Origin: an uncultured Paracoccaceae bacterium
GTDB lineage: Bacteria > Pseudomonadota > Alphaproteobacteria > Rhodobacterales > Rhodobacteraceae
Assembly (NCBI GenBank): GCA_947500135.1
Contig: CANMQX010000004.1
Coordinates: 186,001 to 250,000 of the forward strand
Length of the DNA stretch: 64,000 nucleotides
Direction of reading: 5' to 3'
Under the pieces are notes generated by a model. That model did no database searches and was not told the origin of the DNA. It saw nothing but the letters and a program-made list of their open reading frames with translations. Position 1 is the stretch's first letter; every line of letters starts with the position of its first letter. The translations under genes and the position numbers were made by a program. This document shows positions 46,640-49,609 of this stretch, in pieces.

Positions 46640-46963
46640 TCGAAAGGGCCCCTTTGGGACAAATTTGCGTCGGCCACGAGCGGTGGAAATGCGCCGAAAG
46701 CGGACTTTGCAAAGCCAAGATGCCTTGAAGTAGCGTGACCGCCAGCCTGCTTGGGTCTGCCTTAATTTTCTGAAGCGAAAGACAGCAAACAGCGACGCTG
46801 AGCTCAAAGGGCTGTTTGTTAGTGTACAAGAAGGGTACCGTTTCCTACAGAGGAGCATAGCAAAGTCAACAAACACGTGTGGGAACAACCGTGGACCAAC
46901 AATGGGTTATAGGGAAAGTGTAAACGTAATAGTACTCTTTTTCAAAGTGAAGCGTCGATCCAA

Positions 46964-48688
46964 TCAATCGTAGTTATGCCAAAAATCGTCGGCATCCTCA
47001 TAGAGGTCGGCGTTGTCCGGCGCAGGATGCGCTCCATAGATCTGAATCGCGAGATCATTTGCTTGGTCGATACCTTGCTTATGTTCTTTCGCTGGTTGGT
47101 CCTGCTCAGGCTGCTGTTGTTGCTCCGGCTGTTGTTCCAGTGCGAAGTCTGCTGGGGTAAGTCGCCAACCTTTAAATGCCGTCACGCTAAAGACGTCTGG
47201 TTCTGTTGAGTAAAATTCGACATCTTGATCACGTAGCTCCGCATATAGGCTGTCTCTATCATCATCTGTACCCAGCTTTTGGAAAGCTGGGTTGCTGTCC
47301 CAATTCCTTCGCTCGACTTCGTATAGAGGGAGCCAGGCCTCCGTTTGGAAACTGGTATCGCGGTAGCGGCGTCTCAGTGCGGGCTTGTCGATAGTAAATA
47401 ACCCAATTTGACTACCATGATACAGCATTAGATCGACTAGCTCGCAGGAAGCTCCAATACACAGGTCGCACGTTTTTCGAACAAGCTTTAGGTCTAGAAA
47501 AATCGCACCGTATAAGAACCAAAGCAGGTTCCCAACGTCGTTGCGTCTGGCACAGATTTCTACGCCCCATGCAAACACTTCGCGCGTCTCAGCATTTGCC
47601 CCTAAGTTCCTATATAACCCCAACAGCAATGGCATTACCCACCTAGCTTGATGTGGTGTAGCAAACAGCAGACGTTGCAGATACTCACGAACTAGAACTT
47701 TCTCTGGGTTACGGGCGAGAGCTCTGGCAAATCTTTTGAGAGCGTATCCTGCTACATTCGAGTTTGGATGCTGCGGAATGACAGAGTAAAGAATCTCGAA
47801 GAAATGCTCCACGAAACGCTTACCAGTTTGGCCGTGTAGAACGTCAAAGTTCCTTTGAAAGTTTGACGGTACAAAAGACAAACCTTCGTCGATTGATGTC
47901 TTGAAGTCATTCAATCTAAGCTCATAACGGCTTATAGTTCGTACGAAGTTGCTTTGTGCTTTTTCCAGTTCTCCAATTTCGAACGCACCAATTTGATAGT
48001 CGTCGATGTTGTGAAAGACCTGTTTTGATTTGATGCCAGATCGTGCTGAACAAAGTTCCGCGTCTAAACGAGCTAAAATCATTTCAGAAACTATGCGAGA
48101 GGTATCTGGCCCAATGGGTATTCCGATAGTTTGTCGCTGGTTACAATTGCGTACGAACTTATCTAGCTTGTCGCTCCAATGTGCATTCAAAGTATGCAAT
48201 CTGTATTGCCGTTTGGCTTCCTGTTTACCCAGTGCAGCCCAAGGAATCGAATGGGTGTATATCGAACCATAGAAGCGATTTATATCCACGGTCAGGATGG
48301 ACGGAAAACTACTTGCAAGGTGCTGCTGGCTTTTTCTCTTTGATGCCAATGAAGCCGTTTCAATCGCCCTACCACCAGCGTTGAGGGGTGGGAACTTTGG
48401 CCTTGCGCCAGAACACTTGCTTAGTCTCATGACCGAAGAGATTTCAGTCCAGTTTTCGGCAATAAAACGGGAAAGGAGATAGTAGCTACAAGGATTGACT
48501 ACCCCAAATGTTCTAAGAACACCTCGAAAGGTCGCCCCGTCAAAGAACGTGGTGCTGCCGTGGTAGTTTTCCGGAGGAGAAAATGCTACTGTGAGAGAGC
48601 TAAAGTTCTTAGTTCGAAAAGTCGGAGGTAGTTCGGCTGGATAGAAGCCTCGGTCAAGTAGTCTTGCAAGGCGGGTGTTCTTTGACAT
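46964..48688 (-). CDS. Reverse transcriptase (RNA-directed DNA polymerase), Unknown-Group/DRT-like, with C-terminal helical domain
   Basis: Motif A SILTVDINRFYGSIYTHSIPWAALGKQEAK; motif B QRQTIGIPIGPDTSRIVSEMILARLDAEL; motif C HNIDDYQIG; YELRLNDFKTSI; alpha-helical C-terminus. Confidence 0.88.
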   Translation of the reverse strand: MSKNTRLARLLDRGFYPAELPPTFRTKNFSSLTVAFSPPENYHGSTTFFDGATFRGVLRTFGVVNPCSYYLLSRFIAENWTEISSVMRLSKCSGARPKFPPLNAGGRAIETASLASKRKSQQHLASSFPSILTVDINRFYGSIYTHSIPWAALGKQEAKRQYRLHTLNAHWSDKLDKFVRNCNQRQTIGIPIGPDTSRIVSEMILARLDAELCSARSGIKSKQVFHNIDDYQIGAFEIGELEKAQSNFVRTISRYELRLNDFKTSIDEGLSFVPSNFQRNFDVLHGQTGKRFVEHFFEILYSVIPQHPNSNVAGYALKRFARALARNPEKVLVREYLQRLLFATPHQARWVMPLLLGLYRNLGANAETREVFAWGVEICARRNDVGNLLWFLYGAIFLDLKLVRKTCDLCIGASCELVDLMLYHGSQIGLFTIDKPALRRRYRDTSFQTEAWLPLYEVERRNWDSNPAFQKLGTDDDRDSLYAELRDQDVEFYSTEPDVFSVTAFKGWRLTPADFALEQQPEQQQQPEQDQPAKEHKQGIDQANDLAIQIYGAHPAPDNADLYEDADDFWHNYD

Positions 48689-49237
48689 CTAAAGTTCTCG
48701 AATACTAAGTAGAACGCAAGCAATCTGTTTCGAGCATTCTTGCGTCAATCATGCGCACTGTAAACGCTTTAAAGATTTGGTCCGCGCCGCAGAATGTCCA
48801 ATTGATTGCGCCCTGTCGATTTCTGAGGAGCGCTAACAGCTTTCTATGTTTGTTAGCAAGGTCTGCCATCTGCGCGTCGCTGCCGTTGGTGCTGAGCGCA
48901 GCGCTGAAGAGTGCTCGCCAGATCGAATGAATGGCGGTTTTCAGGAAGTTCTACAGAAGGTTTTGCAGTTTCGGCATCCAGGACATGGAGCGCCCAATCA
49001 ACGACTGCATTGGGCTGGCAGCCGTAGTTGCTTCCTCATCTGGCAGCAGCAGCAAAGTCCGGCAGACAGACCGTCTATTGTGGGGTAGTGCCCGCCCGTC
49101 GTCTATCCCGCGCCATGTTTGGTGAAAGTCTCGACGTACCATTTGCCGCGCCCTACATTGTCGTTCGACAAGTGTTAACAACCCCTTCACCTTTACAGCG
49201 GGCGGTCGTTTAATCCCGCGAAACGCCGCCAAAGGGT

Positions 49238-49275
49238 CCGACGCTTTGCCGACGTCTCGCCGACGCTTTGCCGAC
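49238..49275. repeat. 16-bp direct repeat, period 22, in the rpsA upstream region
   Basis: CCGACGCTTTGCCGAC at 49238..49253 and 49260..49275. Confidence 0.85.
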
Positions 49276-49609
49276 AGCGCTTTTGCCAGCAAAACCGGCC
49301 TCTTAACCTTCGATTCGTGCAAATCGCTGTTTTTGGGCGCTGCACCACCGCGCGGTGCCCACCGAACGTTGCGTGCCACCCCCGCGTGACGCCTGCCAAA
49401 TCGCCTTGCAAAACAGCGCAATCCCCCCTATACGCCGCCCTGTCGAAGCGTCGAGACAGGCGCGGACAGAGGACTTGAGCGGGGTCGGTAACTTACCGGC
49501 CCTGTTGTTTTCTGTTTCGTGAATGGCGCCAGACCAACTGAAACCCCAAAGACCGGCGGAGACAACCGCACGGCCCGTATAAAACAAAACGTTAGGAAAA
49601 CGACGCCAC

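Follow-up and report, generated by a model that had tools for sequence, protein, structure and literature searches.

The reverse transcriptase (RT) encoded between ureG and rpsA in this Paracoccaceae genome is a well-supported member of the UG12/DRT6 defence RTs. It probably forms a DRT6 (UG12) system against phages that consists of this one protein; it belongs to a divergent branch within the Alphaproteobacteria and would work as an untemplated, Tyr573-primed hexamer. The membership follows from the agreement between the best PADLOC profile, the best fold match and the nesting of the protein in a phylogenetic tree. Overall, the RT has the characters of an ordinary but divergent DRT6 member, and only its altered motif C might set it apart from the ordinary.

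The RT gene was found where the original prediction had placed it, with an open frame and both neighbours identified: it occupies positions 46964–48688 of the minus strand of the window (the whole stretch of 64,000 nucleotides that was analysed), and its 574-codon frame is intact from the ATG at 48688 to the stop at 46964. The ureG (TIGR00101, 309 bits) and rpsA (NF004955, 1015 bits) neighbours both scored over their cut-offs. The gene occurs once in the whole genome (4.57 Mb), and neither a second RT nor a nitrilase or a maturase domain was found near it, as had been claimed. The features were as follows.

46715–48998, no strand: variable cargo slot of 2284 bp, with conserved ureG-side and rpsA-side flanks and other cargo in a sister genome
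46964–48688, minus strand: DRT6/UG12-family reverse transcriptase, 574 aa (motifs, profile match, AlphaFold2 model, fold match)
Residues ~1–270 of the RT: RT fingers/palm
Residues ~275–500 of the RT: helical-repeat domain
48269–48286, minus strand: motif A DINRFY, residues 135–140, with the catalytic D135, which is invariant in the alignment
48080–48133, minus strand: motif B QTIGIPIGPDTSRIVSEM, residues 186–203 (sequence and alignment)
47993–48013, minus strand: variant motif C, H226-N227-I-D229-D230-Y-Q, with clade-specific His for Arg and Asn for Tyr
46967–47098, minus strand: acidic disordered C-terminal tail, residues 531–574 (pLDDT < 50)
46970–46972, minus strand: Y573, candidate protein-priming tyrosine and penultimate residue (aligned Tyr column)
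48736–48764, minus strand: possible weak promoter, TTTACA-17-AAGAAT, 47 bases ahead of the start codon; the count of such promoter-like sites equals the chance expectation

When the RT was compared with the PADLOC profiles, the Drt6/UG12 profile PDLC03748 was the best (408 bits, E 2e-122, profile positions 2–508 of 511), and the scores of Drt4 PDLC03752 (203 bits), UG30 (159 bits) and UG14 (121 bits) were lower. Two other profiles named 'Drt4', PDLC02179 and PDLC02177, gave 249–267 bits. Since the solved DRT6 protein, 9wy8, itself scored 734 bits with PDLC02179 and 512 bits with PDLC02177, the 'Drt4' naming appears to mix DRT4 and DRT6. The NCBIfam Drt4 equivalog gave 171 bits and did not reach its cut-off of 450, and no DRT6 model was among the NCBIfam matches. 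The top PDB sequence match was again 9wy8. An AlphaFold2 model of the RT (pLDDT 91, pTM 0.88) had as its top Foldseek match the same entry, 'Cryo-EM structure of the hexameric DRT6' (TM 0.86 by target), followed by UG15/DRT4, AbiK and Abi-P2. Thus, the Unknown-Group/DRT class proposed originally was confirmed and could be narrowed to UG12/DRT6. The view that the protein is not a group II intron or retron RT also held. The one retron model that matched gave 17 bits against a cut-off of 235, with no Rfam match, and the group II intron score was 20 bits against 300, with neither a maturase domain nor an intron RNA; the fold ranking ruled out both as well. A DGR-type origin was excluded by the model scores and the fold ranking.

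The RT shares with 9wy8 the order of the domains (fingers/palm followed by a helical-repeat domain, according to the model and Foldseek), the predicted fold (at 26% identity) and the single-gene arrangement, but differs from it in having H-N-I-D-D where 9wy8 has R-Y-V-D-D and in belonging to a long-branch clade. DRT4/UG15 (9vdo, 9l9s) is likewise a single-gene class 1 RT with a helical-repeat domain and a similar fold (TM 0.76–0.83 by target), but its identity to the RT is about 22%, and in the DRT profile set the Drt4 score was half the Drt6 score. AbiK and Abi-P2, which perform untemplated, protein-primed synthesis, also combine an RT with a helical domain, whereas their primer tyrosine is N-terminal (Y44 and Y61, respectively) and the similarity lies mainly within the RT core. 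DRT3b (UG8), also a class 1 RT, resembles the RT in its C-terminal tail with a tyrosine at the penultimate position, but the sequence similarity is confined to about residues 124–265, and DRT3b works with DRT3a and an ncRNA, whereas the RT has no partner RT.

The phylogenetic tree was based on 93 aligned sequences, with several long outgroup rows and less than the full UG reference set, and came from a short search without bootstrap; in it the RT fell into a clade of seven sequences (support 100), which was nested in a 32-row alphaproteobacterial group of DRT6-like proteins (support 98). The other members of the clade were from Hoeflea (67% identity to the RT), Alteriqipengyuania (61%), Eilatimonas (54%) and three Rhodobacteraceae (about 43–45%), and 9wy8 grouped apart from them, with sequences mainly from Gamma- and Betaproteobacteria. 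The Drt6 score was 399–430 bits in the clade of the RT and 505–616 bits in the other members tested, a difference that would also fit, though less probably, a sister group beside UG12. Three distant outgroup RTs of ~600 aa (L092, L093 and L094), possibly Drt3b-like, end in SSVYA, SQEVY and SREVY, i.e. with a terminal or penultimate Tyr.

The predicted RT motifs were all present: A (DINRFYGSIYTHSIPWA, with D135), B (QTIGIPIGPDTSR, with Q186) and C (HNIDDYQIG, with N227, D229 and D230). The catalytic DD was kept in 91 of the 93 aligned sequences. The residue preceding motif C was His in all seven clade members and Arg in all 86 other sequences, and the Tyr position of YxDD was occupied by Asn in six members of the clade and by Ser in one; in the alignment as a whole this position was Y in 49 sequences, F in 15, N in 10, H in 7 and L in 6, with a few others. 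The N-I-D-D that had been noted in place of YxDD is thus a genuine clade feature: as close relatives have the same reading, sequencing error and decay were both ruled out. The residue equivalent to N227, Tyr245 in AbiK (PMC9508834) and Y276 in DRT3b (PMC13174585), contacts product DNA. Since His226 and Asn227 adjoin the catalytic DD, and a Tyr at the latter position touches product DNA in these two proteins, the chemistry of the clade may, by analogy, differ.

That the RT has degenerated or been repurposed and no longer acts as a polymerase is highly improbable. Two residues beside the catalytic DD have changed, but the reading frame is intact, D135, D229 and D230 are retained together with the family-invariant residues, and the same substitutions recur in seven relatives spread over several bacterial families, unlike what decay would give. 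It is unlikely that the RT belongs to a group apart beside UG12, in which the altered active site would select nucleotides (protein-templated synthesis, as in DRT3b) instead of producing random ssDNA; products of random sequence are reported for DRT4. The long stem branch of the clade (1.66 changes per site), the clade-specific R226H and N/S at 227, and the DNA contacts made by the equivalent tyrosines are consistent with such a group, whereas the well-supported nesting within DRT6-like proteins and the variation of the motif C Tyr position elsewhere in the family argue against it. A functionally distinct class 1 DRT branch, whose remodelled active site would dictate non-random untemplated DNA primed from the last tyrosine, is a tentative and rather doubtful reading of the HNIDD clade.

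The possibility that an ncRNA adjoining the gene serves as template, as in an RNA-partnered DRT of the DRT2/DRT9/DRT10 type, was weighed against the preferred reading of a single-protein system. Several DRTs operate in this way, and 310 bp of the cargo upstream of the RT contain no evident gene. However, when the flanks of the RT locus (921 nt upstream and 323 nt downstream) were compared with the loci of the closest relatives, there was one chance-level match only, whereas the coding regions still matched, and the lack of conservation extended even to the 67%-identical relative. The cargo flanks showed no unusually stable fold on either strand, and an Rfam search of the locus gave nothing credible; a neighbouring ncRNA was rejected on these grounds, and no conserved structured RNA was found beside the gene, unlike in the ncRNA-dependent DRT2/9/10. 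Both fold and sequence group the RT with class 1 single-gene RTs, and according to reviews DRT4 and DRT6 each consist of a single gene and respond to the phage protein ORF55 as activator (PMC13213688, PMC13314766). An RNA-partnered system is therefore very unlikely. Of the earlier description, 'single-protein, possibly RNA-partnered', the first half was borne out by negative evidence and the second was not supported; since no flanking RNA is conserved, sequence comparison makes a single-protein untemplated system likelier than an RNA-partnered one.

Stable structures were predicted at 49409–49608 (plus strand) and 49169–49308 (minus strand), both outside the cargo and the first within the conserved rpsA leader. 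This leader (49398–49609 of the window, plus strand) is conserved in about 15 species of the genus and has no Rfam match. It contains a terminator-like hairpin at 49478–49506, followed by a T-rich run, and the predicted fold of 49409–49548 is unusually stable (z -3.9).

The C-terminal tail, described as Q/E/D-rich in the original prediction, proved to be a real acidic stretch of low complexity, and the model predicts it to be disordered. Across the family, D and E make up 26% of the last 40 residues and 11% of the body. In the column of Y573, 67 of 85 family members had Tyr, as did all seven of the clade; the alignment here is of low-complexity sequence, and about a fifth of the family has no Tyr in this column. 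Among 90 proteins, Tyr was the last residue in 33, compared with 3.4 expected by composition and 4.6 with tail-matched composition, and in 43 it stood at one of the last two positions (6.7 expected); the enrichment of Phe as the last residue was smaller (15 versus 4.6 expected). The 90 sequences are related, so that these counts are not independent, and on the tree the trait must have changed at least 13 times.

DRT3b primes at Y666, which adjoins the last residue of its tail, 622–667 (PMC13174585), and DRT9 at the tail tyrosines Y496/Y498 (PMC12483538). DRT10 primes from a C-terminal serine or tyrosine, and AbiK from its N-terminal Tyr44. An AbiK-like N-terminal primer was ruled out for the RT family, as no tyrosine of residues 17–68 is conserved across it. 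By analogy with Y666 of DRT3b and the tail tyrosines of DRT9, we infer that Y573 is the primer of DNA synthesis.

Class 1 DRTs carry out untemplated synthesis (PMC13174585); for DRT6 a structure exists, and reviews call its product chemistry not yet resolved (PMC13213688, PMC13314766). Judging from its relatives, the RT would most likely assemble as a hexamer, in which the flexible acidic tail would carry Tyr573 into the active site, and ssDNA would be extended from this residue without a nucleic-acid template. Upon infection, a phage product, e.g. a DNA-binding protein, would stabilise the ssDNA, a trigger that relatives suggest, and the accumulation of ssDNA would halt the replication of the phage or the cell.

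GC content was 43–50% over the RT gene, but about 60% towards the urease genes and 55–60% towards rpsA. In the sister genome G297 both flanks were kept (DNA about 91–92% identical) around a different cargo of 1347 bp, and on the rpsA side the similarity to 14 further species of the genus stopped at about 49400–49430. Judged from sequence, the RT gene is low-GC cargo in a small exchangeable defence slot. The slot of the sister genome encodes a 354-aa protein (L139:7561–8625) with a CHC2/DnaG-type zinc finger and AbiJ_NTD5, the C-terminus of which weakly matched nucleoside-deoxyribosyltransferase/TIR effectors; this combination of domains is unusual and probably defensive.

Close relatives of the RT gene lay beside a type ISP restriction enzyme (L006:6006–9575), Gabija (GajA/GajB; L010:813–3930), an ApeA-HEPN-like gene (L008:2664–4106), and ResIII and Fic genes (L009). 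The protein query matched sporadically, in 5 of 397 genomes of the family (E 1e-30 or better). That this very gene resides on a phage or plasmid was rejected, as plasmids, phages and viral contigs yielded only distant members of the family (25–34% identity). The cargo slot, the defence neighbours, the sporadic spread and the distant plasmid and viral relatives together are typical of a mobile defence gene.

The ureG-rpsA slot, in which each of two sister species has its own defence-like gene, is a candidate site for further defence genes in the genus. In the clade, two positions next to the catalytic aspartates are naturally substituted and the candidate primer residue is sharply defined, which makes priming and nucleotide choice in DRT6 directly testable.
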